Assembly: GCA_002689655.1 (NCBI GenBank)
Contig: NZHC01000083.1
Coordinates: 181,934-218,510 of the forward strand
Length of the DNA stretch: 36,577 nt
Source: Rhodopirellula sp.
GTDB lineage: Bacteria > Planctomycetota > Planctomycetia > Pirellulales > Pirellulaceae
Direction: 5' to 3'
Positions 5,705-30,191 of the stretch are shown piece by piece (within the stretch, counting starts at the first letter, position 1; every line of letters starts with the position of its first letter). Below the pieces are notes generated by a model. That model worked only from the letters and a program-made list of their open reading frames with translations. It did not search any database and was not told the DNA's origin. The position numbers and the translations under genes were made by a program.

Positions 5705-5756
5705 GAGCGGTTTGACGACTGGCTATGATCTAGTGGATATTGCCAACAAAGCGAGA

Positions 5757-11429: not shown

Positions 11430-11517
11430 GAGGCAACTTCGCCGCGCAGGGATGGCAGCGGAGATGTTTAACACGATTGCCAATTGAATTTGGCACCTTG
11501 AATACAGAGGCTGCTTG

Positions 11518-14500
11518 ATGACTCTCCGTGACTCGAGTGTTCGCAACGTTCTCCGCAAAGGCGACCGCAAATCCAGCGGGCGACTTCGTGATAAGCGTCG
11601 CCGTATGGAACGACGTCTATTGTCGGAATCGCTGGAACAACGGCAACTGCTGGCAGGTCCAGAAGTATCCGGGATCCAGCCCAGCGAGGGCGCCTTGCTT
11701 GGCGAAGGCACTGTTCTGAGCGTTTCGCCGCGCGAACTGATTTTTCAGTTCGACGATGAAGCCAATTTGGATAGCAGCACATTATCTGCAATCCGGATCA
11801 CTCAAGCAGGGGACGGTGGCGCTTTTGACTCAGCGACCGCGATCAGCGACTTGGGTACTCAGAACGCACTGAGTGTGGAATTCCGAGCTGTGGAAACAGG
11901 TGTCATTGGTAATGGGATTGAAGTGGAGTTCACTTCCAATCCATTATCCTTGGTTACCACTCCCTCAATAACTGTCACAAACCGTGTCGTTGCAATCGAA
12001 GTCAGCAGCAATCCTGCCGCTGAGACAACGATGCAGGACTTGATTTCGTCAGTTTCGAATGACGCTTCTGCTTCGGCTCTGATTGAAGTGATTCAGGTGA
12101 CTGGGTCTTCGCTTTCGCCATTTGGACAACAGATCGGAAGTGGCCTAAATCTGACTCTTCAAGGGGCGAATTCTGCTGAGGCGGTAACCGACTTTGGAAC
12201 CAACGGCGATGTGCAGGTTCGTTTTGTCGCTCAGGAGCCTGGTCCAGGCGGTTTGGGGACTGAGCTGATTTTTGAGCAGCGCAATTTTGGAGGCCCTGCG
12301 TTTCCCGTGATTGTCGTTAATGGCAGTTCAATTCGTGTGCAGCTCAATAGCACTCCGGGTAATGAAACAACGGCTCAGGAATTTCTTTCGTCGATCAGCA
12401 ATGATCCAGCGGCCTCGCAGTTAGTGTCGGCTTCGTTGCAGCAGGGCAACGATCAAACTTTGATTGGTGCGTCTCTTGCATTACCTGGTGTTCTGACACT
12501 GACGGGTGTTGCGGATCTTGCGGTCGAGCCAGGTTACATCGGTTTTGGTAATTCATCTCGGGAAGTCGTTTTCCGATTTGCGGAGCCGCTTGAGGATGAC
12601 CTTTATCAGATTGATATTTCTGGCAGTGGTGCGGGAGCACTGCGAAACCTTGACGGTGAGTTGTTTCAGGATGGTGTTGACTTCAGTCAGCAGTTCAGCG
12701 TGAATCTTGGGCCGAAGGTTGCAGCTGTTGTTCCAGAGCCGGTCAAGCGGGCCGCAAATGGTGACTTGGAGCCCGCTGTTGGTCAGATAGAAATCTACTT
12801 CAATAACGACAAGCTCGATCCAGTTCGAGCGGTTGACCCGAGCTTCTATGCGCTGATTTTTACGCGGGATACCGTCAACAATACAGACGATGTTCTCGTC
12901 CAACCTGACAGCGTTACTTACAAAAGCACCACCAACGTCGTCACTCTCGATTTTGGGAGGCCCCTATCACGGATCACTCACCCAAGTGATCCTGCCGTTG
13001 GGTTTCTGACCGGCGCAGCCAGGTTACGCGTGGGCTCGGATGTCGCGGCGGATCCAGGGGCAACTGATGGGTCGCCTTACGTCGCGCCATTGGAATTTGC
13101 TTTGGATCCTGCGACAGAGGAACCCGGTGATTCCTTCGCGACAGCTTTTGATATTTCAACTGTCCTGCCTGGAGCGGTCAGTTCCACGACGACGACTTCG
13201 GTGCGTCTGTCAAGTGAAATTTACAACGCAACACCATTTGAATTGGACTTGCCTGGACCCGATGTGGATGGTGTACGAGAGATTCGTGAGGACGATCCGT
13301 CGCGACTCGAACGTACTGTACCATTGGACTACCTCCGCAACGGTGCCGACGCTGTCGACGGCATCTCAGTCATGCAGTACGACTTCGTTTCTTCATGGCT
13401 TGGTGACGATCCCACGGCACTGGGGATTGAGGAAGATCGCACCTATTTCAGCGTGATCAGTGAGCAGCAAAAAGAACGCATTCGTGAGGTAATGACTCAA
13501 TACAGTGAGTATTTGGGGATCAGCTTCATTGAAGTCGAGGGTGCACCCACTAGTGAAGCGTTCATGTCAATCGCCGTGGGTGACCTCTACGGTGCTGATG
13601 AAACGGCTACTAGCGGTGATGGTGGTTTGGCGGTTGCAACACGCGATCGTAATGGCGATGGTATCGATGATCTTGCTGTCATGGATTTTCAGGATTTCGA
13701 TGAGTCGGTTGACGACGCGTTTGGCGGTGAATTTTTCCGTGGAGGAATGTTTGCGGTGGGGCAATTGCTCGGCTACGGCTACGCCGATGATTTGCCCCAA
13801 CCAGTGACCCAAAGTTCTGATTTTATATTCAGTCCGGGCACAGACAACGAAGCGGCTTTTCCGAGCGTTGCTGATATTGTCCATGGTCAATATTTGTACC
13901 GGCCTGACAGTACAGACATCGATTTGTATCGTTTCGACCTGCCAGCCAGCGGCTCGCTCTCGGTTGAAACCATCGCGGAGCGACTTGGTAACCCAAGTTT
14001 GCTCGATTCCGTCCTGCGAGTCTATCAACTGGGGGCAGACGGTGCATTTGAAGAAGTCGCTTCCAATGATGACTACTTCAGCAATGACTCGTTGGTCGAT
14101 TTAGAAGTGAACGCAGGCACGTACATGATTGGTGTCAGTGCACGTGGAAATGCGAGTTACGATCCGACGATTGAGGGAACCGGATTTGGTGGTCTGACGG
14201 AGGGTAGTTATGAATTATTGCTGGATTTCCGTCCCAATCTCTCCAGCGGACTGACGGACACAACCGGGGTTGCACTTGATGGCGATGGAGATGGCAGACC
14301 AGGAGATGTCTTTAATTTCTGGTTTGTTCCCAGTGATGTGAATGACACTCTGTATGTTGATAAGGCAGCGACTTCGGCATCGGGCAATCTCGGTACCGTT
14401 AACAATCCATTCCGGGAAATTGACCAAGCTATTGCTGCAGCTACTGAGGGTACGACCATTCGTGTGCTGGGTAATGGTGGTGTCGATGGTCAGATGGAAA

Positions 14501-17500
14501 CGCTGACGGATAACTACAGTTATCAGATTGGATACACGACCAATGGCATGCCTTTACCTGACGGGACGACATTGGATGTTCCCAAGGGTGTGCGTTTAAT
14601 TATCGATTCCGGTGCCATCCTGAAAATGAGCCGAAGCCGTCTTGGTGTTGGCAGTGCGTCACTTGAAGACCAAAGTGGTGCTTCGTTGCAAGTCTTGGGA
14701 ACGCCTTCGATCATCACTTCTGCGGGCTTGCCTGCCCGTGATGAATTTAATGTTGTCATTCCTGGCAGTGTTTTCCTGACAAGCATCAACGATGACTCCA
14801 TCGGGAATGGAAATACGACGGGCTCCAACCCCATCGCCGGCGAATGGGGAGGCATTGATCTGCGAGGAGATTTGGACAGTCAGGACGAGTCGCGTCGTAA
14901 TCTTGAAGATGAAGGGGTGTTCCTCAATCATCTTCAGCATGTTGATATCCGGTACGGTGGTGGTCAGGTCTTGATCGGCGGACAGTCGGTAGTGGTGTCA
15001 CCTATCGATATGGCAGTCACCCGACCCACGATTATCAATTCATCTGTCACTGAAAGTGCAGACGCTGCGATTGCTGCAACACCTGATACCTTCACTGAGA
15101 CTCGCTTCACTGCTCCTTCTTACCAAGCTGGCGGTGCGTTTAGTCCGGACTACGATCGCGTTGGTCCCCACATTTGGGGAAATACCGTTGTCGATAATAC
15201 GATTAACGGTTTGTTTGTTCGCGTTCGTACCCGTGCCGGTGATGTTCTTGAGACGATCTCTAGCTCGGCACGTTTTGATGATGGCGATATTCCTATTGTA
15301 CTGACGGAAACGCTACAAATTGAGGGCACGCCTGGCGGCCCAGTGCTTCAGTCTACAGCACCCTCGTCTTTGCTGGTTCGGTTGAGTGATACACCAGTCG
15401 GTGATGTTCCCGCCGGTACCTATCAGTATCGTATTACGAATGTAGACTCAGCAGGTTTGGAATCGGCTTCTAGTTTGGCAACCGTTTCCATTGACTTGGC
15501 TGACACTGCGGGTATTCAACTGGATCAGTTGCCTGCGGTGAGCAGTGGAAGTGGCTATGTCGGAAGACGGCTTTATCGTGCCGAGGTCGTAGGAGACATC
15601 GTTGGAGACTATTTGCTTGTTCAGGAATTAAATGCGACGGACACTGTCGCAGTTGATCGAGCTGCTTCAGGTACGACGGTATTGTCGACCGAGGCAAGCG
15701 TCCTGCGGAGTCGGCTTGATGCAAGCTTGACGATTGATCCCGGGACCGTGGTCAAAATCGACGGATCGCGAATTGAAGCTCGGTTTGGTGGCAACTTGAT
15801 TGCTGAGGGAAATCCAGGTGTCCCCGTGGTCTTCACTTCACTGGAAGATCAGCGATACGGTGGAGGCGGTACTTTCAACACCAATGATCGCCCTCAAGAA
15901 GCTACTCTGTCACCTGGCGACTGGGGTGGAATCTACATCGGCCACGCGGGTTCAGCCAGCATTGATCAAGCGGTTATTGCCGGTGCAGGTGGTACGACAC
16001 GGATCGAGGGTGGATTTGCCTCCTTTAATGCCATTGAGGTGCAGCAGGCAGACTTGCGACTTGCCAACACACGGCTCGAATTGAATGCCGATGGACGTGC
16101 GCAACCCAATGGAGATCGAGTTGGCCGGGCTGACAATGGAGACGCAACGGTGTTTGTGCGTGCCGCGCAGCCAGTCATCGTTAACAATGAATTCATCGAC
16201 AATGATGCCGCGGCTATTTCTGTCGATGTCAATTCCTTTTCTGCGTCAGAGGTTTTTGATTCAGGACGCGCGACGGGTGAAATTGATGCAACGGTTGTTG
16301 CAGGGAACTCAGGTCCCCTGATTGAGGGAAATGAAATTCAGGACAATGAACTCAATGGAATGATTGTTCGTGGTGGGCAGTTGGCAACCTTGGGCGTGAT
16401 GGATGATGTTGACATCGTTCATGTGGTGCGAGATGCCATTGAGGTTCCCAATAAACATATTTTCGGTGGTTTGCGACTTGAGAGTGATGCTCGTGGGAGT
16501 CTCATTGTCAAGTTTGAGAGTGCTGAGAATGAGAATGCCGGGTTGGTGATTGGTGGCTCCTTACTGAGTGGTGATGACGAGTTCCGGGATATTTCCGACC
16601 GAATCGGTGGTAGCTTGCAACTACTCGGGCACCCTGATTTCCCTGTTGTCCTGACGACATTGGCGGATGACACCGTGGGTGCCGGATTCACGCTTGATGG
16701 CAGAGCGCAACGCGATACCAACGGTGATGGTATTGCCTTTGATGATTTGGCCAATCAGGGCGTGGGTGGTCTGCCTACTCTGCCCACTGGTCCTGAAGTC
16801 AATCGAGGACTGACAATCGATAATGACGTTGACATTAATTTGCCGGGTTATTTCGAGGCAACCATCGCAGACGCGGGTGATGTTGGCTCCTCGGGTGTAA
16901 CCGTCGAGGATCTTTCAACTAGCACCATTTTGATAAGCCAGGATTACATCTTTGCCTACAACACATTTGTCACAACGGCGACTGGTGTTGAGAGGCTTAG
17001 TGCGACGACGATCACGCAACCGGCAACATTGGTTGCCGATGATGTTGTTGAGAGCCAGGGAACGTTTGCAGGGCCCAATGGTCTCGTTTCTTGGACTGCG
17101 ACTTCATTGTTTGAAAATGGAGTCAGCCGGTTGGTGACGACTCTCGACTTTGATAGTGGGCAAGCAACGCTGGGTGATATCCAGGTGGTTTCCTATCTTG
17201 ACGAGGACGTTGAGGGCATTTCGGACGACATTCTTGTCACCACGGGAATACCCGGAGCTGATGGGTTTCGTGCATTCACGCTTGACTCACTGAGAAGAAT
17301 TGGATTCTCGCAGGGCGGGCACTACATTGAGGATGGAATCAACCTGGTAAACGCAACTTATACGGGTTGGGCTGCAGATCAGTTTCCCGAGCTGCAAACG
17401 TCCATCGCGGCTGGGACGCAGACTTACAGCATTGCCGGCGAGATCGATCTTGATGATCTTCCAGCGAGTGCAGATCCAGTTTTCGGACAGCAGTTTGGTC

Positions 17501-20500
17501 CCAACGATATCACCACCGCGTTCGCTTGGAACACTGATGTTATCTCTACGACAGCACGAGTCACCACATTTCTTGAGCTGTTGTCACGCGACCCAGCGGT
17601 AGCGCCACCGTTGTTCGACTTTGAAGCAGGGCTTTGGGATGGTGTCGTGGTACGCGAAGGTGCTGACGACCGTAATGTCGCAGCATTCGCTGAAAGTGAG
17701 CCTGTTCGTTCTGGATTTGTCGACACCAACGCCATTCCAGCACAGTCGCAGTTCCTCGGTGAAATTGCACCGAATCTTCAGTCAGGCGACGAGAATCGTC
17801 GGCTTGGCTTTATCGTCAACGGTTCCGTGTCTCAACGTGATGACCTTGATGTCTATTCCTTCGTGGCTGAGAGTGGAACGGAAGTTTTCCTTGACATTGA
17901 CATGACTGGTAACCAGTTCGATTCTGTGATCGAACTCATCAATGCCAATGGTGCTGTGCTGGCGTCTTCCAACGATTCGATTCTTGCCGAGACAGATGAG
18001 TCCGCTGTTTACACTGACTCATCGATTACACCAGAATCAGCTCAGCCGTTGTCCGTTGTCAGCCAGCCGCTGCCGGTTCAACGACTAACGATTGATCACA
18101 CGATTGCTGATGCGACTGATGGTGAATTGCTTCTCACGCTGTCCGGTTTTGAAGATGCTATTCCAGTTTTAGTAGAAGATTTTCAAATCAATCCTGCTGC
18201 GGCTGTGCAAGCGGCACTGGTGGCAGCCTATCCGAATGAGTTGGGTACAACCCTCTGCACGTTGTTAGAACGGGAAGCGACGGATGATTTCGTTGTGCAG
18301 TTGGAATTTGATGGTCAGCAGTTCACCGCTGATACGTTGCCACAAATTACGGTGGATGGCAGTGGTGTCATTGGTGCGGTAGTCACGGGAAGTGCTGCGG
18401 AGACACTGTTGCTTTCGCAGTTGCAGGATGATTACAGCACAAACGTGAGAGACGCTGGCTTCCGAGTACGATTGCCGGGAGAGTTGGGTACGCGAAATCT
18501 TTACCATGTTCGCGTACGAAGTAGTAACACTACCGATCCTCTCGATTTTGCAACTCTGAATAATCCCTCAATGGTTCGTGATGGATTAACGTTCGGTAGT
18601 TATGAAATGCAAATCCGATTGCAGGAGGGAAATGAGCGTGCAGGCACACAGATTCGTCTGTCGGATGTTCGTTTCGCAACGACTGGATTGCAAATCATTG
18701 GTCAGCCACTGCACTCGCCATTGCTGGGCGAAGATTATGAAACTGCAGCAAATAATGATTCATTAGCTCAAGCACAGCCGCTGGGCCTGCATAACGTTGC
18801 TGGTGATCTTGTTGCTGCGAGTGGGCCTCTGCAAAGCGATCAGCTCGCAAAATCGTTCTCAGGAACGATCGATTCGGCAACTGATGTAGATTGGTACCGT
18901 TTCGATGTGACCTATGAGAACATCACGCGTGATAGCGCTGCGCTTTATCTCTCGACCGTATTCGACCTGGATTATGCAAGTGGCTACGCCCGTGCGGACA
19001 TGGCACTGAATGTGTTCAACGCGCAAGGTCAGTTGGTGTTGACAGGTGGCGACAGCAATATTGCTGAAGATTTGCCAGTGCCGTCCGAGAGTAATAGTAC
19101 CGACGATCTCTCGCGTGGAAGCGCGGCCGTTGAAGATCCATTCATTGGTGCAGCGGAACTTGCTGAAGGAACGTATTTTGTTTCTGTATCCAATCAACAG
19201 CAGGTCCCGCAACCGCTTGATCAGTTCTTTGATGCCAACAGCCTGAATCCACTCCTGCGTCTCGAGCCGATTGACTCTGTCAAGCGAATTGTTGAGGACC
19301 GTATCGGAACTGTGGGCGGTGGTACCGGCGACAATACCGAAACCCCGCTTTTGTTCGAAAATACATCAATTCAGAAACATTCGTTTGATGACACTTTGGT
19401 TTACGTGAACACGGCGACGGGATTGCTGCTGGTGAATCCTGCTACTGGTGTGCAGTATGGAACGGTTGGTGGACTCGGTGATCGGATCGATGACATCGCA
19501 TTCCGGGCCAACGGTGAACTTTTCGGATATACGGAAACGGGTGGTACAGACGATTCAACTGAATACGTTCGGATCGATACTGGTGATGGGTCACTTGCCG
19601 TTATCGGCTTGACTGGGATGGAGACAAGGCATCGTGGGACCGATCCAGAAGAAACGCTACTGACCGAAGTCAGCAATGATGGTTTTCAGGTTAATGCGAT
19701 CAGTATCCGTGATTTTCAAGGTGTAGAGCGAGGCTTCCTTGTTGGTGAACGTGCTGCCCCGCCGCAACTGGGCTTGGACTACATCACCAATATTCTCTAC
19801 GAGTTTGATGATGCGACCGGGGAAATTCTCGGGCAGACAGGGGATATCCCGGTAACTGATGCTGGTGCTGGTACGGTCCCACGGGAAATAGGGCAAATCA
19901 ACACATCGCCCAACAGTATTTTTGCCAATCAGTTGGGTATCTCCAACGCTACCGAAGTGGGTAGCAATGGCGTAGCTGTTCCAAGCTTGGTGGATGGAGA
20001 TTTCTTCACTCTATCCAATGTCACTGAATTCGTGACATTTGAGTTTGATCAGTCTTACACTCTTTTTGCGGATGGATCTCAGCCAGTCCGCGATGGCGAC
20101 GCTGTGGTTGTTGATGGTGTGAAATTCGAGTTCGAAACGGCTCAGCGTTTGCAATTGTCTGAGGTTGCTCCCACTGGCTTGCTTAGCGAAGGAACCACGA
20201 TCAGCATTGAGGGTGCTGAAGGCATCGTGACCTTTGAGTTTATACGACTCGGTGATCCGGCTGAGGGTAATGTTGGAGTCACGATTGTCGACTCACTCGG
20301 AGTACCGCTCACGGCTGATGAGATCACGTTGGATCTTGTGAATCAAATCAATATTAATCTGCCCGATCTCGCTGCGGTCGCGTTTGATAGCGAAGTTCAC
20401 TTTTCTGAGCCAGCAATTTCTTTGAATACGCTCGGCGCCGGTGTCAGCATTCTGGGGTCAGATGGTTTGACCGATCCCGCGGCGAAAGCTGTCTCCGTGT

Positions 20501-23500
20501 CATCCAACCTTGGGCAGGAAGAGTTGATCACTGCTTTGGCGAATGCCATTCGAAATGAGGGACTCGCTGTTTCAGAAAGTGGAGCACAGCTGAGTCTGCC
20601 TAATTCTGTGTCTTTGGCTGTGGTGCCTGATCCTGATGTAACGCCATCAGCATTTGCGATCACAGGGACGCCGGGTGTTGGAGCAGGCAATGTGCCAATT
20701 GATTTACTGCCAACGGACACATTTGAGGTCATCGCAAATCGCATAGCGGCCGCTGTTCAACAAGCCAATGATGCAGGTGACTTGCCAAATGTCACAGCGG
20801 TTCCCAATGGTCGGTCCTTGACGATCCTTGGCGGATTTGTGGGTGATTCTTCTGATAATTTGACGGCAGGCGGACAGCCTAACGGTGGAACAATTACAGG
20901 AGTTGAGCTTGTCAACGATCGCCTGTATGCAATTTCAAATACTGGTGGATTGTACGAGGTCAACGCTGCCGAGTTGAGTGTCAGTGCCGGCAATGAGCAG
21001 GTGGGAACTTACGTTTCGACGGCGACCGACTTGATTGGAGTCAACTTTGCTGGGTTGCGAGCTGGGCCAATGTCCGTTGCGGACGGTGCACTCAGTGACC
21101 TGCTGTTTGGAATCACCGACAACGGGGATATTCACGCCTTCAATGTGCGAGGGGAGTTGCAGCCAGTTTTCTCAGGTGGTCGCTCGGTCGTTTCCACGGG
21201 AGTTGCAGGAGCTTTGGGGCTCGATTTTACCACCGTGGACTTCAATCTTTGGCATACAACAGGTACACGTGGTGGAGACCAAGGTCATGGCATTGAGGCT
21301 CTGCCAAACGGCACGCGTGATGCGGTCGCAGGCGGTACTAGTCTTGCATTCAATTACGAGAATGACGCGTTCAGCGAGAACTTCCCATCCGCGTCCGAAC
21401 AGCCAGTTGCGGAGCCACGAACCGATGGAACTGCAGTAGCGAGTTCCTTCAATGTTCCAGGTGGTGCGAGAGGTGCAATCGAAACCAATCCATTTAGTCT
21501 GCGGCAATACGCTTCTGCTGATAAGCCAACGCTTTATTACAATTATTTTGCAGCGAACGATGGCAATGACGATCGCCTTCGAGTGTATGTCATTACTGAG
21601 GACGGGGCTCAGCATCTGGTTACATCCAATACCTTGGCACGCGGTGCTGATGTGGATGATGATGAGTTCGATGATCCAGCTGAGGAAGGCCAGTACGACG
21701 ATGATATTGATGTGACTGTTCAGCAGTCCTTTGATAATACTGGGTCGTGGCGTCAGGCCAGAGTTGACCTTGGCAACTTCGCTGGTATGGAAAATCTTCA
21801 ATTGCGAGTCGAGTACTCCACTAGCGGTACTGCTCTCAGTTCTTCAGACGCTATTCGAGCAGTAAGTGGAAAGATACTCGCGAATTCTGTCGACCTAGAA
21901 TTCGTTGTCGAGGGGAGCCAGATCGCAGCAGATGCAGAGAAGTTTGTCGTGCAGTTGGCCCCAGCGGTCGCGATTCCGTCAGGAAGTGAGATCGCTGCTC
22001 TCTATGTTGACCCGGCTGAACAGGCACTGCTTACCATTGATGGGCTGGAGTACCTGCTCAACGATGGAAGTCGAAGTGCGACGTTGGGGCAGGTTGATGT
22101 TGACCTGTTGGCCGACTCGGAGCCAGGAACCACTTTGGACCAGTTGAGTGCTGCTGAAGTCGCGAGGATTGTCACGGCTGCCGTCAATGCTAACCTGCCA
22201 CCGAATCCGGTGATCTCTGGGGTAGCGTTTTCCGACCCAGAAGACACTCCGCCAGCTTTGGGACGCAATGACTTCCTGTACGAAGCTACTTCCTTGCCGT
22301 ACGCAGGCGGAAATGTGACGATTGAGGGTACAGGTCGGTTGGGGACACTCAACGGTGTTGATCCACCATCCAACGTTGATGATGTTGATCTGATGCGATT
22401 GAATGTGAAAGCTGGAACATTGGTGGCAGTCGATCTTGATCTACTTGCAGATGATCTCAGTCAGACGCCGATCAACTCCGTAATTAGATTCTTTGATGCT
22501 GACGGGGAGGAGTTGACCGCAGTTCCAAATCTGGGAGAAGACAAAGTTCAAACCACGGCGTTGGTTGATGGACTGATCTATATCGGATTCAGCGGAGTTG
22601 GGAATGAGGCGTATGATCCGCGGATTGAGGGGTCAGCCCAAGCAGGACAAATGGGTACTTACTCGGCAACGATTAGCATGACACTGCCTAGTGTTTATCG
22701 GGCAGATGGGAATGTGATTGAATTCGCTGGTGGCCAGCAATCAATCACAGTTTCACAGCCTGACTTGTTTAACGTTGTACAAAGCTCTTCGCTCGATGCG
22801 ACTGAAGTCTCAGTCAGTAGATTCATGACGGCCGCTGAAGTTGCCGGCGAAGTCCAACGAGCCATTGCGAATCGCTTCGTGGATGGTGAGCTTGATCTGC
22901 TGCCCACGTCAGGAGCCAGTGTTCGTCTACCAGCGCTTCGTATCCTAGATGCTGGCCCATTCCAGTCCGAGAGTGATCGGTATGGCGAGCAGTTCGCAAG
23001 TGGAGTCGTTGTCGGTGCGCGTGATAACGCTCACGAGGGAATTTATCTTGATGACTTTGTGATTGGACTCGCTGAACGTGGTGAAGTTGTGAGTGGATCC
23101 AATGTTGTGGATACACCATTCACAACGGACTTGCGACCTGCTTTTTCAACGCCAGCTGATCCAACATCAGACTTGGTGACTGGTTCCTACAGTGTTGAAA
23201 TTCGTGACGCGAGTGAGTACGTAAATTCACTTGAGAGTGAGCAGTTTCGAGCATTCGATACCAATGACCGCTTATCTGAATCGGTAGCTATCACTGCTAG
23301 GGGCGCGGCTGATATCAGCGATGGTGACACGTTCACTCTCTCGGATGGTCGCTCGGTCGTGGTCTTTGAGTTTGACCAGGTTGAGCTGGGTAACGGTGTG
23401 GAGCCAGGACGAGTTGCTGTTCCATTCACGTTGGAAAAGCTGGACCTGCTCTCTGGGTTTGAACGAGCAGAGACTGCTGCCGAGGTGGCGAGAAATATTA

Positions 23501-26500
23501 TCACTTCGATCAACAGAAGCGATGTTCAAGCTGTTTTCCAAATCCCCGCTATGCTCGCCGGTGGTATCGATAGCTCAGGTGGGAATCGCATTGATTTGGT
23601 CGGCGAGGTGATTGTCGGCAATGCGGATGGTGTACTCGCCTCTGTGGCTCAGAATCGTTTCCGTGGAGATGAGAATCGTGTCCGGGAAAGTCAGGGTGTT
23701 ATTCTAGTTGAGAATAGCCGCTTCCTCTTTAACGAAGATCATGGCATCGTGATTGACCATGGGTTCACTGCAGAGGTAGACGGTCAGGTGACGCCAGTGA
23801 TTGCACGCTATCCTCGAAACCTCATAGAGTTGAACACTGAGAATCTTGCCAGTGGCGTCGTCGTTCAGAGCAACGTACTGGCATTCAACGATCTAGGTGG
23901 ATTGAAGATTGTTGGTGTTCCACAAGGTGCCGGAGAAACTTTGCGTGATCCTGTCTGGTACGACCGTATTGTCAACAACACAATCATCGGCGGAGATATT
24001 TCTCCGGGTCGTACTGCACCACCTGAGTCGTTTAAAGGCGTCTTGTTCCCATCCGGTGTGGTGTCCTTCGCAGATTCCGTGGTTGACTACGATCCGACTG
24101 CGGGTGGCGTGCCACCGATTACGATCCATCAGAATCCTGCTAATGCACTCGGTGCACCGGATGCTCCCGGAATTGGTGCTGAGCCTGATGTTGGGGACAC
24201 CACTGTTTCTCTTGGGTTTGGTGGGTCGCTGACTCTACAGTTTGTTGACAACCTGTTGGCAGGTAATGGCAATGCTCAGCCGGATTTGGTTGTCTTTGAG
24301 TCCGGGGAAATCGAGTCGGTTCTGGTGGAGATCAGCCGTGACGGAACAACATTCTTTGATGTTGGTGTTGTCGGTGGACTCGCGAATACCTTGGATATTG
24401 ATGCCTATGGTTTTGGAGTACAGGATCGCTTTGCTTTTGTAAGGGTGACCGATCTTCGTCAGGGCGATCCAGATAGTACTTCGGCAGGTGCTGATATTGA
24501 TGCCATTGGAGCAATCAGTTCCGCTTCGGTCGAAGCCTACACGCCAAGCGGTATCGGTGTGGAATTGACTGGCAACGCAGCCCCCGTCCTGCTGAACAAT
24601 ATTATCTCGAATTCAGATGTCGGTATCGAGTTGGATCCCACGTATGACGTGCCACTGCTTGGTGGTAACTCTTATTACCGAAACACTCAAAATGTGACGA
24701 CGGATGGCAGCGTAGGCCAGTTTGCTCAGGAACTTACTGATGCTGAGGTGATCTTTGTCGGTGCTCCAACACTCGTGTTTGCACCCGCTGCAAATGCATC
24801 GATCATTGACAGTTCTATCGACTCTCTAGAGGATCGGGCAAGTCTGACCGCTGTCAAAAATCCACTGGGGTTGCCCCCGTCGCCAATCATTGCTCCGCAG
24901 TTTGATGTGAACGGGCAGTTGCGAGTTGACGATCCTACTGTGCAAACTCCAAATGGACTTGGTGAATTTGTCTTCAAGGACAGGGGAGCATTCGATCGTG
25001 GTGATGTGGTGAAGCCTCGAGTCGTTCTACTGACCCCGAATGCACCGAGCCTTGGTCCGGATGCGGGAGTTGCAGAAGTTACAGGTGACATCCCGCTGTT
25101 CTTCGAAGCACAGTTCATTGACGGCATTGCTCCTGCAGATGTTGTGCCCGGGACTGGAATTGATGATTACAGTGTTACCAGTCAGTCGGTGCTATTGCTT
25201 AAGGATGGTGTCGCGCAAGTTGAGGGAGTTGATTACCGATTTGGGTATCACCCAAGTACGAACGTCATTCGTTTAACACCGATCGCAGGTGCTTGGGAAC
25301 CAGCATCCACCTACGTCATTCGAATGATTGACTCGACAGATGCCATCGTGAGTGCGAGTGCAGGTAATACCTACAGCGATGGCGAACGCCTGAATGTCAT
25401 CGACTTGGAAGGCAATACATCGACCTTCGAGTACGATACCGGCTTGACGCTAAGTATCAACTCACTACTGATTGACTTGGGCTTGGCAGATGGTCTCACT
25501 ATCGAGGTCTTTGACGGTGTTACAGCTGTTACCTTTGAACTCGATGATGATGATGTTTCCGCTGCCCTTAATACTGCGGTCCCTGTTCCAAGCACAGTGG
25601 AAATACTTGCAAGTTCTATCGCTGATGCGATCAATGCCTCTGACTTGAATCTTTCGGCTACCGCATTCGGACAATCGGTTCAATTGTTAGGCGACAATCC
25701 GCTTGCCAGCGTGACACCAAGCAGTGCTCTCTTCTCCGTGAGGGGTGAGGTTGGAGTGTCGTCCGGTTTCGGGTTGAGAATTCCGAATGATGGTGTGGGC
25801 ATTTCCGACACCCTGGAAGAGGGCCAAACCTTCAGTGTGCGTCAAGGTTCGCTTAATAATATTACCTTCGAGTTTGATAGTGATAACAACGTTGAAAGTA
25901 ATGATGCGGGTGTGTTAAACGTAGCGATTCCTTTCTCTGCGGTTTCCACGCTTGATAGTCTTGCGGACGCCATTGCTCTTGCAATTGGTGGAGAACCTCT
26001 TGGGTTGGATCCATTCAACGTGGGATCAGGTCGTATCTCGCTTGGAGGCGATGCTAACTACTCACTCGATTTGAGTGAAACAGTTTTGACTCCGATTGGT
26101 GTTCCCGGAGAAACAGCCAGTAACGCTGTTGTCATTCAAATTGATTCGAGTGATGATGAGAACGCTCAGGTCATTGCGGCAGCCATTGATGCGGCGGCAA
26201 TCCCAGGAGTCGTCGCTTCTGTAGTCGACCGTCAGATTTTCCTTGAGGGCACGGCTGGCGTAAGTGGTGTTGGTGCTGTCGAGATCGTTCCTGTACGCGA
26301 CGAAGTTGGTAACTTGCTGCAAAGTAACCAAGTTAATGGTCGGACAGAACTGATTATCTACGTCGGCGGAGGGTATGATTACGGCGATGCACCAGATCCT
26401 TACCTGACCAGCATGGCTGATGGTGGACCACGACATGGGGTCGACCAGAGCTTTGCTCTCTCGCCTGTCGACAGTGGGCGGGCTATTACGGCTGACAGTG

Positions 26501-27381
26501 AGCCTCGTCTGGATAACCTTGACGAAGATAACGGGGTGAATTTGACCGGTTCCCTCATCGCCGGATTCACTGGAAACTTCCAAGTCTCAATCACTAACGA
26601 TGACAATCGTGATTTCTATCTGGATGCTTGGTTCGATTGGGATCAAAGTGGTACTTTTGATCTCGACGAGTTGAAGCGATACGGCTCCGTTATCGCGCCT
26701 GGTATTATCCCGATCGCTTCCGGTGACAACATCGGAATCGCCGTTCCGGGTGATGCCGAGATCGGTGAGACCTACGCACGCTTCCGATTGAGTGAGGTTG
26801 CCGGGCTTGGTCCCAATGGAGATGCTGCCTCCGGTGAAGTAGAAGATTGGGCTTTTGTAATCGAAGCGAACCCATTCCAAAATCCGGTTTCAAACACTGA
26901 CGTGAATGATTCGGGGGCAACGACACCGATTGATGGTTTGCAGATTATCAATGCTCTTTCTCGCAATGGCGGTGGGAATATCTTCCTCGATGTATTGCCA
27001 TTGCCAGAGAATCTGCCGACCTACCCAGACGTAAGCGGCGATGGAAAGATTAGTCCACTCGATTCGCTACTTGTGCTCAATAAGTTGGCTGAACTTTATA
27101 ACTCAGGCAGCGGTGAGGGAGAGGCAAGTGGCTACGTTCCTGTGGCAGGTGGTGTTATGGCATCCGGAGGGACGATCATTGGAGATGAACTGCTCCGCCG
27201 CGAGGTTGAGCATGCTGCTGGGTTGCCGACTGCAGATACCTCAAAATCTTCAGTAAGCGTCTTTGACAGCCCGGCAGTGGTCGACCTTGACCAGGTCGTT
27301 GATTCACTCGCTTTGGATACAGCGAGTGTCCGGGACGTTGAAGACTTAAATTCGATTGATGCGTTGTTTGCCTCTCTTTGA
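11518..27381 (+). CDS. Giant secreted/surface mosaic protein (~5287 aa) with LEPR-XLL-like N-terminus, beta-helix, PPC, GEVED and dockerin domains
   Basis: One uninterrupted 15.9-kb frame. ATG 11518 has AGAGG upstream; a TTG directly before it is in frame. The basic N-terminus carries ESLEQRQLLAG (~residues 36-47), like planctomycete LEPR-XLL proteins. Next come two tandem ~110-residue units (~105-335), each with a [ST]NDxxAS motif, Ig-like segments (~335-510) and a metalloprotease-like domain lacking its zinc site (~600-790). A PPC-like domain starts with DSTDIDLYRFDLP (~795). A parallel beta-helix region begins at YVDKAATSASGNLGTVNNPF (~944), and more PPC-like domains lie near 2096, 2443 and 3623. 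Repeated 'GD.F.L...G...FEFD' units occur at ~2840, 3935, 4620 and 4770, a second beta-helix stretch near 4045, and a GEVED domain at ~4955-5115 (YGDAPDPYL...GEVEDWAF). A two-part dockerin follows (~5127-5195; DVNDSGATTPIDGL, DVSGDGKISPLDSL). It is acidic and Asp-rich, as expected for a calcium-binding extracellular protein. No enzymatic activity can be assigned. Confidence 0.9.
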   Translation: MTLRDSSVRNVLRKGDRKSSGRLRDKRRRMERRLLSESLEQRQLLAGPEVSGIQPSEGALLGEGTVLSVSPRELIFQFDDEANLDSSTLSAIRITQAGDGGAFDSATAISDLGTQNALSVEFRAVETGVIGNGIEVEFTSNPLSLVTTPSITVTNRVVAIEVSSNPAAETTMQDLISSVSNDASASALIEVIQVTGSSLSPFGQQIGSGLNLTLQGANSAEAVTDFGTNGDVQVRFVAQEPGPGGLGTELIFEQRNFGGPAFPVIVVNGSSIRVQLNSTPGNETTAQEFLSSISNDPAASQLVSASLQQGNDQTLIGASLALPGVLTLTGVADLAVEPGYIGFGNSSREVVFRFAEPLEDDLYQIDISGSGAGALRNLDGELFQDGVDFSQQFSVNLGPKVAAVVPEPVKRAANGDLEPAVGQIEIYFNNDKLDPVRAVDPSFYALIFTRDTVNNTDDVLVQPDSVTYKSTTNVVTLDFGRPLSRITHPSDPAVGFLTGAARLRVGSDVAADPGATDGSPYVAPLEFALDPATEEPGDSFATAFDISTVLPGAVSSTTTTSVRLSSEIYNATPFELDLPGPDVDGVREIREDDPSRLERTVPLDYLRNGADAVDGISVMQYDFVSSWLGDDPTALGIEEDRTYFSVISEQQKERIREVMTQYSEYLGISFIEVEGAPTSEAFMSIAVGDLYGADETATSGDGGLAVATRDRNGDGIDDLAVMDFQDFDESVDDAFGGEFFRGGMFAVGQLLGYGYADDLPQPVTQSSDFIFSPGTDNEAAFPSVADIVHGQYLYRPDSTDIDLYRFDLPASGSLSVETIAERLGNPSLLDSVLRVYQLGADGAFEEVASNDDYFSNDSLVDLEVNAGTYMIGVSARGNASYDPTIEGTGFGGLTEGSYELLLDFRPNLSSGLTDTTGVALDGDGDGRPGDVFNFWFVPSDVNDTLYVDKAATSASGNLGTVNNPFREIDQAIAAATEGTTIRVLGNGGVDGQMETLTDNYSYQIGYTTNGMPLPDGTTLDVPKGVRLIIDSGAILKMSRSRLGVGSASLEDQSGASLQVLGTPSIITSAGLPARDEFNVVIPGSVFLTSINDDSIGNGNTTGSNPIAGEWGGIDLRGDLDSQDESRRNLEDEGVFLNHLQHVDIRYGGGQVLIGGQSVVVSPIDMAVTRPTIINSSVTESADAAIAATPDTFTETRFTAPSYQAGGAFSPDYDRVGPHIWGNTVVDNTINGLFVRVRTRAGDVLETISSSARFDDGDIPIVLTETLQIEGTPGGPVLQSTAPSSLLVRLSDTPVGDVPAGTYQYRITNVDSAGLESASSLATVSIDLADTAGIQLDQLPAVSSGSGYVGRRLYRAEVVGDIVGDYLLVQELNATDTVAVDRAASGTTVLSTEASVLRSRLDASLTIDPGTVVKIDGSRIEARFGGNLIAEGNPGVPVVFTSLEDQRYGGGGTFNTNDRPQEATLSPGDWGGIYIGHAGSASIDQAVIAGAGGTTRIEGGFASFNAIEVQQADLRLANTRLELNADGRAQPNGDRVGRADNGDATVFVRAAQPVIVNNEFIDNDAAAISVDVNSFSASEVFDSGRATGEIDATVVAGNSGPLIEGNEIQDNELNGMIVRGGQLATLGVMDDVDIVHVVRDAIEVPNKHIFGGLRLESDARGSLIVKFESAENENAGLVIGGSLLSGDDEFRDISDRIGGSLQLLGHPDFPVVLTTLADDTVGAGFTLDGRAQRDTNGDGIAFDDLANQGVGGLPTLPTGPEVNRGLTIDNDVDINLPGYFEATIADAGDVGSSGVTVEDLSTSTILISQDYIFAYNTFVTTATGVERLSATTITQPATLVADDVVESQGTFAGPNGLVSWTATSLFENGVSRLVTTLDFDSGQATLGDIQVVSYLDEDVEGISDDILVTTGIPGADGFRAFTLDSLRRIGFSQGGHYIEDGINLVNATYTGWAADQFPELQTSIAAGTQTYSIAGEIDLDDLPASADPVFGQQFGPNDITTAFAWNTDVISTTARVTTFLELLSRDPAVAPPLFDFEAGLWDGVVVREGADDRNVAAFAESEPVRSGFVDTNAIPAQSQFLGEIAPNLQSGDENRRLGFIVNGSVSQRDDLDVYSFVAESGTEVFLDIDMTGNQFDSVIELINANGAVLASSNDSILAETDESAVYTDSSITPESAQPLSVVSQPLPVQRLTIDHTIADATDGELLLTLSGFEDAIPVLVEDFQINPAAAVQAALVAAYPNELGTTLCTLLEREATDDFVVQLEFDGQQFTADTLPQITVDGSGVIGAVVTGSAAETLLLSQLQDDYSTNVRDAGFRVRLPGELGTRNLYHVRVRSSNTTDPLDFATLNNPSMVRDGLTFGSYEMQIRLQEGNERAGTQIRLSDVRFATTGLQIIGQPLHSPLLGEDYETAANNDSLAQAQPLGLHNVAGDLVAASGPLQSDQLAKSFSGTIDSATDVDWYRFDVTYENITRDSAALYLSTVFDLDYASGYARADMALNVFNAQGQLVLTGGDSNIAEDLPVPSESNSTDDLSRGSAAVEDPFIGAAELAEGTYFVSVSNQQQVPQPLDQFFDANSLNPLLRLEPIDSVKRIVEDRIGTVGGGTGDNTETPLLFENTSIQKHSFDDTLVYVNTATGLLLVNPATGVQYGTVGGLGDRIDDIAFRANGELFGYTETGGTDDSTEYVRIDTGDGSLAVIGLTGMETRHRGTDPEETLLTEVSNDGFQVNAISIRDFQGVERGFLVGERAAPPQLGLDYITNILYEFDDATGEILGQTGDIPVTDAGAGTVPREIGQINTSPNSIFANQLGISNATEVGSNGVAVPSLVDGDFFTLSNVTEFVTFEFDQSYTLFADGSQPVRDGDAVVVDGVKFEFETAQRLQLSEVAPTGLLSEGTTISIEGAEGIVTFEFIRLGDPAEGNVGVTIVDSLGVPLTADEITLDLVNQININLPDLAAVAFDSEVHFSEPAISLNTLGAGVSILGSDGLTDPAAKAVSVSSNLGQEELITALANAIRNEGLAVSESGAQLSLPNSVSLAVVPDPDVTPSAFAITGTPGVGAGNVPIDLLPTDTFEVIANRIAAAVQQANDAGDLPNVTAVPNGRSLTILGGFVGDSSDNLTAGGQPNGGTITGVELVNDRLYAISNTGGLYEVNAAELSVSAGNEQVGTYVSTATDLIGVNFAGLRAGPMSVADGALSDLLFGITDNGDIHAFNVRGELQPVFSGGRSVVSTGVAGALGLDFTTVDFNLWHTTGTRGGDQGHGIEALPNGTRDAVAGGTSLAFNYENDAFSENFPSASEQPVAEPRTDGTAVASSFNVPGGARGAIETNPFSLRQYASADKPTLYYNYFAANDGNDDRLRVYVITEDGAQHLVTSNTLARGADVDDDEFDDPAEEGQYDDDIDVTVQQSFDNTGSWRQARVDLGNFAGMENLQLRVEYSTSGTALSSSDAIRAVSGKILANSVDLEFVVEGSQIAADAEKFVVQLAPAVAIPSGSEIAALYVDPAEQALLTIDGLEYLLNDGSRSATLGQVDVDLLADSEPGTTLDQLSAAEVARIVTAAVNANLPPNPVISGVAFSDPEDTPPALGRNDFLYEATSLPYAGGNVTIEGTGRLGTLNGVDPPSNVDDVDLMRLNVKAGTLVAVDLDLLADDLSQTPINSVIRFFDADGEELTAVPNLGEDKVQTTALVDGLIYIGFSGVGNEAYDPRIEGSAQAGQMGTYSATISMTLPSVYRADGNVIEFAGGQQSITVSQPDLFNVVQSSSLDATEVSVSRFMTAAEVAGEVQRAIANRFVDGELDLLPTSGASVRLPALRILDAGPFQSESDRYGEQFASGVVVGARDNAHEGIYLDDFVIGLAERGEVVSGSNVVDTPFTTDLRPAFSTPADPTSDLVTGSYSVEIRDASEYVNSLESEQFRAFDTNDRLSESVAITARGAADISDGDTFTLSDGRSVVVFEFDQVELGNGVEPGRVAVPFTLEKLDLLSGFERAETAAEVARNIITSINRSDVQAVFQIPAMLAGGIDSSGGNRIDLVGEVIVGNADGVLASVAQNRFRGDENRVRESQGVILVENSRFLFNEDHGIVIDHGFTAEVDGQVTPVIARYPRNLIELNTENLASGVVVQSNVLAFNDLGGLKIVGVPQGAGETLRDPVWYDRIVNNTIIGGDISPGRTAPPESFKGVLFPSGVVSFADSVVDYDPTAGGVPPITIHQNPANALGAPDAPGIGAEPDVGDTTVSLGFGGSLTLQFVDNLLAGNGNAQPDLVVFESGEIESVLVEISRDGTTFFDVGVVGGLANTLDIDAYGFGVQDRFAFVRVTDLRQGDPDSTSAGADIDAIGAISSASVEAYTPSGIGVELTGNAAPVLLNNIISNSDVGIELDPTYDVPLLGGNSYYRNTQNVTTDGSVGQFAQELTDAEVIFVGAPTLVFAPAANASIIDSSIDSLEDRASLTAVKNPLGLPPSPIIAPQFDVNGQLRVDDPTVQTPNGLGEFVFKDRGAFDRGDVVKPRVVLLTPNAPSLGPDAGVAEVTGDIPLFFEAQFIDGIAPADVVPGTGIDDYSVTSQSVLLLKDGVAQVEGVDYRFGYHPSTNVIRLTPIAGAWEPASTYVIRMIDSTDAIVSASAGNTYSDGERLNVIDLEGNTSTFEYDTGLTLSINSLLIDLGLADGLTIEVFDGVTAVTFELDDDDVSAALNTAVPVPSTVEILASSIADAINASDLNLSATAFGQSVQLLGDNPLASVTPSSALFSVRGEVGVSSGFGLRIPNDGVGISDTLEEGQTFSVRQGSLNNITFEFDSDNNVESNDAGVLNVAIPFSAVSTLDSLADAIALAIGGEPLGLDPFNVGSGRISLGGDANYSLDLSETVLTPIGVPGETASNAVVIQIDSSDDENAQVIAAAIDAAAIPGVVASVVDRQIFLEGTAGVSGVGAVEIVPVRDEVGNLLQSNQVNGRTELIIYVGGGYDYGDAPDPYLTSMADGGPRHGVDQSFALSPVDSGRAITADSEPRLDNLDEDNGVNLTGSLIAGFTGNFQVSITNDDNRDFYLDAWFDWDQSGTFDLDELKRYGSVIAPGIIPIASGDNIGIAVPGDAEIGETYARFRLSEVAGLGPNGDAASGEVEDWAFVIEANPFQNPVSNTDVNDSGATTPIDGLQIINALSRNGGGNIFLDVLPLPENLPTYPDVSGDGKISPLDSLLVLNKLAELYNSGSGEGEASGYVPVAGGVMASGGTIIGDELLRREVEHAAGLPTADTSKSSVSVFDSPAVVDLDQVVDSLALDTASVRDVEDLNSIDALFASL

Positions 27382-27629: not shown

Positions 27630-30191
27630 ATGAAAAGACGTCGCTCAAAATCGTATGATAACAATCGACTGTCGGTGAGACGGTTGCGAATGGAGTCTTT
27701 GGAGCAGCGTCGGTTGTTGGCCGTGACACCACTTGGGGCGACACATCTGGATACTGGCGAATTCTTGCTCGGCAGCGTCGCCGTGACGCCGGTCCTTTTT
27801 GAAAGTAATGGATCGATTGATGCCGAGTCACAAAATTGGACTGCAGCGGAAATCGATGAAGCGCTTGCCAAGATGGGAGAAGGTGTAAATTGGTGGAGTG
27901 ACACGCTTGACGGACTCAATACGGTCCACACCGTAGATTTTGTTTTTGACAACGCCTTTGCGCTCAATCCAGTCGAGACCGGTTACGAGCCGATCGATCG
28001 GATCAGCAATGATTTCAATCTCTATGTGGGAGAATTTCTGATCGCCCAAGGTTTCGGGAATGTGGGGAGCATTGAGGAAGGAGTGAAGCAATTCAATGAC
28101 CACCAGCGCGAGCAGATGGGTACGGATTGGGCTTTCACCATCTTTATGGTTGATTCGTCTGATGACCCGGATGGTCGCTTTATCCCGGGGGGGTTTTTCC
28201 AAACGGCTTTTGCTTATGCGGGTGGTCTGTTTATGGTGACTCCGTCGACCCGGCCTGCTTCCACCATCGCACACGAAATGGGGCACATATTCTGGGCGAA
28301 GGATGAGTATCCTGGTGGCGCAACATGGACAGATCGCCGAGGTTACTACAATTCCCAAAATCTGAACGCATTTGATAATCCGACACCCGGATTTACTCAG
28401 GAAGATAGCATCATGAGCAGTGGGTTGGTGTTGGCTAATGCCTATGCTGCGAACGAGAGTCCAGACGCGACTTTGGCTATGATTGGATGGCGTGATTCTG
28501 ATGGGGATGGCGTTTTTGATCTCGCTGATGTGCCGTTGGATTTTGAAGGCGTAGGTTATTTTGATTCCTCATCGTCGACTTACTATTTCACTGGATCTGC
28601 CTCTGCTGTTCCCTTGATCAATGAGAACTCGTCAGGACCACAAAGCGATATTACGCTTAACCGTATCAGCAAGCTGCAGTATCGGTTGGACGAGGGGGTT
28701 TGGGTTACCGTGTTACAGCCTGATCAACAAAGAGCGGTTTTTGATGTAACTTTACCGATTGCTCAGGCATTTTCTTCTATTCAGTGGCGCGTCATCGATG
28801 ATGCGACTGGTGTGACAAGTGAAGTGATTGATGGAGACGCCATTTTGCCTGCCTTCTCGCTGACGAGTGGATCGGGCGTCGTTTTCCTCGACGAGGATAA
28901 TGATGATCAACGTGATTCTGCTGAACAACTGCTAGTGGGCGCAACGGTAGGTATCAAGCACATCGACGGAAGCAACCTCGTTTTCCATGAGATAGAGGCA
29001 TCGAATTATCAAACTGGGTTCCTTCCGGTCGATCTACCAGATGTTTCCCTGACCTCACAGCATCCAACTTTTGATGTAGTGTCGGTCGGTGAGTTGGTAC
29101 CGAGTGGTGTTCGGATACTTCAGCAGTTTGATGCAAATCTTGGTAACCTTGTTTTGAGAGATTCGTGGACGCAGGACCAACCGCTGTCAGCGACTTTCGA
29201 TTCGCCAGTAGGCGAAGTATCTGTTGATGTTTTTGGGGCCGCTGCGGGAAGCTTTGTGAGAATTGAGGCGATGGATGCGGCAGGCAATCTGTTGCAACGT
29301 ACCACCAGCGATTTGATTAGCTCGGATACTTTTGGCACGGTGCGAGTGAATGATCCGCTAGGAAGGATAGCCAGCGTTTTAGTTTTCGGTCATGCAGAAA
29401 CCGAAGCCCTCATTCGCGGAATTAGTTTTGGTACCAAGCCGGTGGTTAGCACCGGGCCGGCTGGAGACTGGCGTTTTGACAATTTGCCAGTAGGCCAGTA
29501 CACGGTTGACTTGACTCCGGAATTGTTGATTCATCAATTTGATCAAGCGAGTTTCACAATCGATGTGACGGAGAGCGGTAGTAGCCTTGTTCAGTCACCC
29601 GCCAGTCGCGTGGATTGCCCATTTTTCAATGCTGCACTGCCCGAAGACACCAACAAAAGTGGCAACGTGACAGTACTTGATGCTTTGACCGTTCTTAACG
29701 ATATCGCGCGGGACGGAGTCAGAGTTTTGCAGGCAAATGAGGTGCTGACGAACTACATCGATGTCAATAATGATGGCCGAGTCTCCACGTTGGATGCCCT
29801 GCTGGTCCTCAACAAAGTGGCTTTGATTTCCGCGGGTGGTGAGGGTGAAGCTGCTGATTTCGGACGGTTTCTGGCAATCCGGAATAGTGAGGCCGGTTCG
29901 AACCCTGATTTTCTGGTCATGAATTACTGCTTTGCTGCCACATCACAACGAAACCTCATTTGGGGGGTGTGGAACTATGCGGATTCCCACAGGCGTTCCG
30001 AAAGTATCGGCAGCGCGAATGCCGATAATGCCGTCTATGGGCCACTGCATCAGGCGATGCCCGCAATCGAAAATGCGTTTTTAAGGCAAACAACGGCACA
30101 AAAGCCACTTGAGGTGGATTCAGAGACTATTGATCGAGATGTGTTTGATCATCAATTCGGTCTCAAGACCACGCCGCAATCAACAGAATAA
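27630..30191 (+). CDS. Secreted putative zinc metallopeptidase with SdrD B-like and dockerin domains (853 aa)
   Basis: The N-terminus is basic and carries MESLEQRRLLAV (~residues 21-32), the motif shared with both large neighbours. A peptidase-like domain contains IAHEMGHIFWAKDEY. His215, Glu216 and His219 form an HExxH zinc site and an Asp-Glu-Tyr follows six residues later, the pattern of HExGHxxxxxxDEY peptidases resembling the M64 (IgA peptidase-like) group. After it come a segment with an Ig/Fn-like look, a SdrD B-like module starting GVVFLDEDNDDQRDSAEQLL (~residue 416) and a second small module (WRFDNLPVGQYTVDLTP). A two-part dockerin follows (~675-735: DTNKSGNVTVLDALTVLNDI and DVNNDGRVSTLDALLVLNKV), then GGEGEA. 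The C-terminal ~110 residues are not recognised. Likely exported and calcium-dependent. The substrate is unknown, but the giant neighbour or other surface proteins are candidates. Confidence 0.87.
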   Translation: MKRRRSKSYDNNRLSVRRLRMESLEQRRLLAVTPLGATHLDTGEFLLGSVAVTPVLFESNGSIDAESQNWTAAEIDEALAKMGEGVNWWSDTLDGLNTVHTVDFVFDNAFALNPVETGYEPIDRISNDFNLYVGEFLIAQGFGNVGSIEEGVKQFNDHQREQMGTDWAFTIFMVDSSDDPDGRFIPGGFFQTAFAYAGGLFMVTPSTRPASTIAHEMGHIFWAKDEYPGGATWTDRRGYYNSQNLNAFDNPTPGFTQEDSIMSSGLVLANAYAANESPDATLAMIGWRDSDGDGVFDLADVPLDFEGVGYFDSSSSTYYFTGSASAVPLINENSSGPQSDITLNRISKLQYRLDEGVWVTVLQPDQQRAVFDVTLPIAQAFSSIQWRVIDDATGVTSEVIDGDAILPAFSLTSGSGVVFLDEDNDDQRDSAEQLLVGATVGIKHIDGSNLVFHEIEASNYQTGFLPVDLPDVSLTSQHPTFDVVSVGELVPSGVRILQQFDANLGNLVLRDSWTQDQPLSATFDSPVGEVSVDVFGAAAGSFVRIEAMDAAGNLLQRTTSDLISSDTFGTVRVNDPLGRIASVLVFGHAETEALIRGISFGTKPVVSTGPAGDWRFDNLPVGQYTVDLTPELLIHQFDQASFTIDVTESGSSLVQSPASRVDCPFFNAALPEDTNKSGNVTVLDALTVLNDIARDGVRVLQANEVLTNYIDVNNDGRVSTLDALLVLNKVALISAGGEGEAADFGRFLAIRNSEAGSNPDFLVMNYCFAATSQRNLIWGVWNYADSHRRSESIGSANADNAVYGPLHQAMPAIENAFLRQTTAQKPLEVDSETIDRDVFDHQFGLKTTPQSTE

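Follow-up and report, generated by a model that had tools for sequence, protein, structure and literature searches.

The window, i.e., the whole stretch of 36,577 nucleotides of Rhodopirellula sp. DNA analyzed here, contains an open reading frame for a giant protein of 5288 amino acids on the forward strand (11515–27381), in which a TTG codon at 11515 is directly followed by an ATG at 11518 that may be the true start. All features of the giant described here lie on that same strand. Its N-terminus carries a Planc_extracel-like export motif (residues 33–48, 11611–11658; Pfam PF07595, 23.8 and 21.4 bits in two runs, both below the curated cut-off of 25.5), and residues 611–797 (13345–13905) form the subject of this work, a matrixin-like metzincin domain without a zinc site, delimited here with the linker to the following domain on the basis of profile search, alignment, AlphaFold2 model and Foldseek search. 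Behind it come a pre-peptidase C-terminal (PPC)-like domain (residues 802–876, 13918–14142; PF04151, 24.3 and 20.6 bits in two runs, below the cut-off of 25.9), a right-handed beta-helix-like region (residues 1469–1621, 15919–16377; PF13229, 20.3 bits, below the cut-off of 25.9), a GEVED domain (26617–26853; PF20009, E 2.1e-10, above cut-off) and, near the C-terminus, a type I dockerin (26896–27087; PF00404, 27.9 bits, above the cut-off of 22.9). The last two are the only Pfam matches of the giant above curated cut-offs, and an NCBIfam search of the protein returned no match. The N-terminal motif, the dockerin and the habit of the family suggest that the protein is exported and probably located at the cell surface. 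Although dockerin-bearing proteins are present in the genome, a Pfam search of it detected no cohesin at E ≤ 0.01, and cohesin–dockerin anchoring was for this reason dropped as a demonstrated mechanism.

The next gene (27630–30191, forward strand) encodes an 853-residue zincin with a dockerin and an intact zinc site, HEMGHIFWAKDEY (residues 215–227, 28272–28310). Its best label is putative M6-like, based on a sub-threshold match to the NCBIfam M6 domain (E 0.028, 14.3 bits, cut-off 110.8) and on the pattern HExxHxxxxxDEY, which we take to be M6-like. The original prediction had placed a gene with an intact HExxH beside the giant; the motif is there, but in a zincin of another family rather than in a matrixin. 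Further downstream, positions 30419–35866 encode a 1,815-residue VCBS/cadherin-repeat protein with a type I dockerin near its N-terminus (residues 63–123), an unusual placement compared with the two preceding genes. Upstream, the reading frame at 5712–8234 matches photolyase (phr2) in its N-terminal half and FAD-dependent oxidoreductases in its C-terminal half, an apparent photolyase-oxidoreductase fusion.

To place the domain within a family, the window segment was searched against 147 related genomes, 93 of which gave a match at E ≤ 0.001, the homologous stretch corresponding to residues about 611–797. A first collection of 112 loci, including three complete copies from the window's own genome and taken from the stronger matches of that search, was aligned over the domain. 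A profile built exclusively from the 44 rows with an intact zinc site recovers the window protein at E 5.1e-39, and with the motif masked (19 residues) it still finds the whole giant protein at E 1.7e-27. The window segment scores 132.4 bits with the intact-only profile, and the highest score among 2000 shuffled versions of it is 9.8 bits; this difference and the masked-motif match indicate that the similarity is more than chance. Recognition of the matrixin family itself depended on these relatives, since the window segment alone gave no match to PF00413 (M10) in Pfam and only a weak one to DUF4853. In a 38-member family alignment, in contrast, Pfam M10 matches 26 of the 38 members at E ≤ 1, and the family profile finds MMP-12 among PDB sequences at E 4.8e-7 in an alignment that runs through the HEIGH motif. 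Judged from these sequence comparisons, the window domain is homologous to catalytic metzincins of the matrixin type.

The predicted fold points in the same direction. An AlphaFold2 model of the window domain, made from 66 sequences, reached a best pLDDT of 76.1 and a pTM of 0.78 (63.9–76.1 pLDDT over five models), which is a medium confidence; the alignment contained intact relatives, and these help to pull the model toward a metzincin fold. In the 221-residue segment modeled, strands are predicted at 39–45, 48–51, 63–66, 90–94, 105–110, 128–131 and 141–145, and helices at 71–88 and 160–173, a metzincin-like strand-helix-strand order in which helix 160–173 occupies the expected place of the active-site helix. 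The model thus contains, as a prediction, the five-stranded sheet, backing helix and active-site helix of metzincins. Foldseek returned 133 matches at E ≤ 0.001, all 50 of those listed being serralysin-type proteases, MMPs or karilysin; the best ones (serralysin, MMP-11 and karilysin) have E values of about 1e-5 and a probability of 1.00, with moderate TM-scores (0.46–0.57 by query, at most 0.74 by target). A control model of the intact relative L160 (pLDDT 75.6, pTM 0.68) likewise has MMP-11 as its best match, with an AB5 holotoxin entry at rank 3. Neither model is independent of the homology, because both alignments held intact and erased rows. The original prediction of a matrixin-type domain ahead of the PPC domain is thus supported jointly by the intact-only profile, the fold prediction and the structural search, which it had proposed as a check and which favors a metzincin, with the extent of the domain refined to residues 611–797.

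Within this domain, the intact-only profile aligns MFAVGQLLGYGY column by column to HEiGHlLglgH, and many relatives have a textbook zinc site at the same place, e.g., L031 with FQTAIHEVGHMLGLGHTDEL. The erased active-site helix and loop of the window protein, MFAVGQLLGYGYADDLP (residues 745–761, 13747–13797), holds F746 (13750), A747 (13753), Q750 (13762) and Y756 (13780) in the columns of the HExxHxxGxxH motif, replacing His, Glu, His and His, respectively, and the zinc ligands and catalytic Glu of an active matrixin (M10) peptidase are therefore all absent. The Met-turn methionine is also missing, Gln766 (codon 13810–13812) standing in that column, which is weakly diagnostic because this column is Met in 29 of the 44 intact rows and Gln in 11. 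The motif alignment of the original prediction is borne out exactly by zinc-intact homologues such as L031 and by the intact-only profile, and alignment with relatives, suggested as a further check, finds the substitutions to be common to homologues.

These homologues include a clade of 24 rows, on a single branch with support 99, in which the site is erased in every row, and a sequencing slip is thereby excluded as its cause. The loss is old within this clade. Its His1 column is Phe in 15 rows and Leu in 9, the Glu column is A, G, V, I, T or L, the His2 column is Gln in 24/24, and the His3 column is Tyr in 23 and Phe in one. Nine positions of the erased helix (G, Q, G, G, A, L, Q, P and Q) are each invariant in all 24 rows, whereas other erased lineages vary widely at the helix columns fixed in this clade. 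A second collection, consisting of 80 of 204 relatives and partly overlapping the first (same genomes), contributed 29 rows of the window type (L113–L141), with Gln at His2 in 29/29 and Tyr (27) or Phe (2) at His3. Window-type rows come, among others, from Rhodopirellula baltica (the strain of L128 has an erased copy), R. maiorica, R. sallentina and Rubripirellula obstinata, as well as from Roseiconus nitratireducens, Stieleria tagensis, Neorhodopirellula pilleata and Aporhodopirellula aestuarii. The alignment search of the window's own genome recovered three complete copies, each of them erased, plus one truncated by a contig end, whose motif is not visible. Two further giants of this genome, C15 and C44 (L272 and L273), have the domain erased in a different manner (AGLR) and belong to a separate clade. 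Pfam M10 matches seven other places of the genome at E ≤ 1, two of them above cut-off, and HExxH is present in all four of the seven that were read.

Loss of the site extends well beyond the window clade. All four residues (HE..H.....H) are present in 44 of the 112 aligned rows, 55 rows have none of them and 13 have one to three, so that the full site is absent in 68/112 relatives; in the second collection it is intact in 29/80. These fractions are not unbiased estimates of prevalence, because the searches began from an erased sequence or from an alignment headed by one, and because the first collection covers the stronger matches. In a quick, midpoint-rooted tree of the domain and the following region, from which the motif columns were excluded, parsimony requires the site to switch between the intact and the erased state at least 16 times. 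If the ancestor is taken as intact and each erased clade as one loss, the tree as resolved has 19 such clades, and 16 remain after collapsing branches with support below 80. The exact number of losses is thus uncertain, but repeated loss is not, since seven independent pairs remain when only starred branches are used. The window clade joins the erased L042 (support 91) and then the erased L027, L032, L035 and L037 (support 99), the next neighbors of which are the intact pair L036 and L054 (support 89). A pair resembling GQ...GY arose elsewhere, in L076 (SGQY), which is paired with the intact L050 (support 87). The erasure that had been noticed in the window domain is real, though it is one of many losses in the family rather than a one-off event.

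Two candidate changes accompanying the loss were considered and dropped. An Arg three residues before the motif Met (‘FFR’, before Met745 in the window protein) occurs in 42/68 erased versus 2/44 intact rows, and the independent pairs, which change the same way in 1.1 and the other way in 0.5 of 7, did not uphold it as a coupled change. Loss of the Met-turn Met likewise had no independent association with erasure across the pairs of the tree.

The erased domain of the window clade is strongly conserved. The window giant was aligned with 20 of the 23 other clade members (G012, G013 and G058 were left out), and in 20/20 comparisons sequence identity is higher over the domain than over the remainder of the protein. 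No other stretch of the same length is equally conserved in 9 of these comparisons, and in 15 at most 4 of the 210–235 overlapping stretches match the domain; the equally conserved stretches in the other five number 61 (G010), 10 (G007), 15 (G020), 35 (G016) and 49 (G066). For six additional pairs of clade members, the numbers of such stretches are 0, 6, 0, 0, 26 and 54. In all eight clade pairs with dS defined for both parts, dN/dS is lower in the domain (0.011–0.119) than in the rest of the giant (0.049–0.218), the individual domain/rest values being 0.029/0.049, 0.011/0.053, 0.014/0.049, 0.023/0.056, 0.028/0.110, 0.045/0.144, 0.043/0.143 and 0.119/0.218; these are rough values, because dS is high in most pairs and near or beyond saturation in many. 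Since the domain ranks first or close to first in conservation in 15/20 comparisons, it is not decaying in this clade, and the original suggestion that it is kept as a folded module agrees with this strong constraint. Such conservation is not confined to erased domains, because intact ones are also well kept in their giants: six intact pairs used as controls gave 4, 20, 40, 13, 0 and 44 equally conserved stretches (for G025–G070, 0 of 194). Nor does it hold for every erased lineage, given that the AGL-type erased clade shows no special conservation (81, 67, 79 and 11 equally conserved stretches of 178–280).

For the M6-like zincin of the next gene, a search of 99 genomes gave matches in 60, some of them through the dockerin alone, and among the stronger matches HExxH is present in 47/47 homologues, with DEY after it in 46 and DEH in the remaining one. 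This search covered 22 of the 24 window-clade genomes, and in 20 of the 22 the gene follows the domain on the same strand at a distance of 12.7–14.4 kb; G058 and G012 have the domain and the zincin gene on separate contigs. The same gene order is found in six genomes outside the clade, with the giant erased in G046, G044, G027 and G026 and intact in G029 and G042, and the gene pair thus exists with either a live or a dead giant domain. The idea that the downstream zincin took over the function of the dead domain was rejected because the zincin is also intact beside the intact giants of G029 and G042.

Taken as a whole, residues 611–797 are likely a former zinc protease of the matrixin-like metzincins that now serves as a non-catalytic binding or structural module under purifying selection. 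As an enzyme homologue that lacks its catalytic residues and is retained under selection, it qualifies by its sequence as a pseudopeptidase, and its probable present role is binding or structural, because it is among the best-preserved parts of the giant despite the lost site. In the proposed course of events, the three zinc ligands and the catalytic Glu all disappeared in an ancestor of the window clade, and the active-site helix was then re-packed without metal: Phe or Leu replaced His1, an aliphatic or small residue took the place of Glu, the invariant Gln that of His2, and Tyr or Phe that of His3. The domain stayed folded and was then strongly constrained by purifying selection in a non-catalytic capacity, the pseudoprotease and the PPC-like domain behind it may form a rigid unit of the exported giant, and the old substrate cleft or surface could hold a partner protein or peptide, or a neighboring part of the giant, without cutting it. 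Homology to intact members, loss of the site and constraint are shown by the data, and we infer from there the binding role and what would be bound. A broader reading, offered tentatively and at somewhat under even chances, is that giants of the Pirellulales contain an embedded metzincin platform that has been repeatedly disarmed, and that the Rhodopirellula/Rubripirellula/Stieleria clade has turned it into a zinc-free recognition module with the fixed core F/L-x-x-G-Q-L-L-G-Y-G-Y-A, beside the always-active zincin of the next gene.

The main rival to a binding module is a purely structural use, which sequence does not tell apart from binding: the domain would be a folded unit assisting the folding or export of the PPC-like domain and the giant, with no partner and an irrelevant cleft. 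In every alignment made, the domain indeed stands ahead of the PPC-like domain, the linker DIVHGQYLYRP is conserved together with it, and export of a giant could favor a rigid N-terminal unit; however, the extreme conservation of the erased helix in the window clade goes beyond the need of a mere spacer, and we regard this explanation as rather unlikely. That the domain lost catalysis and is simply drifting is very improbable for the window clade. Such decay would fit the AGL-type clade, in which, besides the lack of special conservation, the C15–C44 pair from the window's genome has a higher dN/dS in the domain than in the rest (0.115 versus 0.060), but the window clade displays the opposite pattern and none of its 24 rows contains a frame break or internal stop. 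The strong constraint accordingly applies to the window clade and not to every erased lineage.

The remaining alternatives concern the catalytic history of the domain. It is scarcely probable that the domain is still catalytic through other residues or another metal: the Gln and Tyr fixed at His2 and His3 are what a re-used polar site might look like, but within the clade any of A, G, V, I, T and L can stand at the Glu position, and Gln, Phe and Ala are not usual ligands of zinc or other metals. Equally concerned with history, and hardly credible, is descent from a domain that never had a zinc site, with the intact members having gained the motif. Parsimony on an unrooted tree does not by itself distinguish gain from loss, and the midpoint root falls beside an erased clade. 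However, HExxHxxGxxH stands in the intact members in the same full context as in MMPs and serralysins, at many points of the tree erased rows fall among intact ones, partly erased forms exist (the 13 of 112 rows with one to three of the four residues changed), and the syntenic giants with the same downstream zincin include the intact G029 and G042. Loss from a catalytic ancestor, followed by retention as a non-catalytic module, is the reading that we prefer.

Among known systems, the window domain resembles the matrixins (PF00413, Peptidase_M10; e.g., MMP-12, MMP-11 and karilysin) and the serralysins in predicted fold and sequence family, and its intact relatives have, like the matrixins, HExxHxxGxxH and often the Met-turn Met. 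In contrast to matrixins, it has all three ligands and the Glu replaced, sits in a 5,288-residue protein and is without a Pfam M10 match. Dead metzincins that act in interactions are known from animals, where catalytically dead ADAMs are described along with other metallo-pseudopeptidases, and the window domain is like them a metzincin that lacks active-site residues and is retained as a folded module of a larger protein; whereas the dead ADAMs, in the parts of that account consulted, are animal membrane proteins with partners known in several cases, the domain described here is bacterial and its family has lost the site many separate times (PMC11266112). The CLCA proteins and other zincin families mix intact and substituted HExxH motifs, the substitutions being conserved and non-random and their role unknown according to the sections of the source consulted, and the His to Arg substitution found there also occurs here, at His1 in 10 of the 44 other erased rows; CLCA is nevertheless a different zincin family, and the text seen of that source has no occurrence of Planctomycetes (PMC3650047). 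Giant genes of planctomycetes have been published (PMC5177795; PMC11573180), and one giant of Stieleria varia, Pla52n_17500 with 6858 amino acids, is annotated as Matrixin; it likely belongs to the same general family as the window giant, and the portion of the source consulted does not discuss the state of its zinc site (PMC7717043).

Pseudoproteases are thus a known kind of protein, and the literature searched, outside which most subscription journals lay, contained no account of zinc-site loss in planctomycete giants and no description of a bacterial, repeatedly disarmed family of this type. To our knowledge, bacterial metallo-pseudoproteases have been little described. Giant proteins are abundant in planctomycetes and mostly uncharacterized. 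The interest of the present family stems from the loss being repeated, shared and then conserved: it presents one domain, in comparable places, with its site intact, partly erased or fully erased, which could make testable what a metzincin fold does after catalysis ends and may offer a first handle on the role of planctomycete giant proteins.
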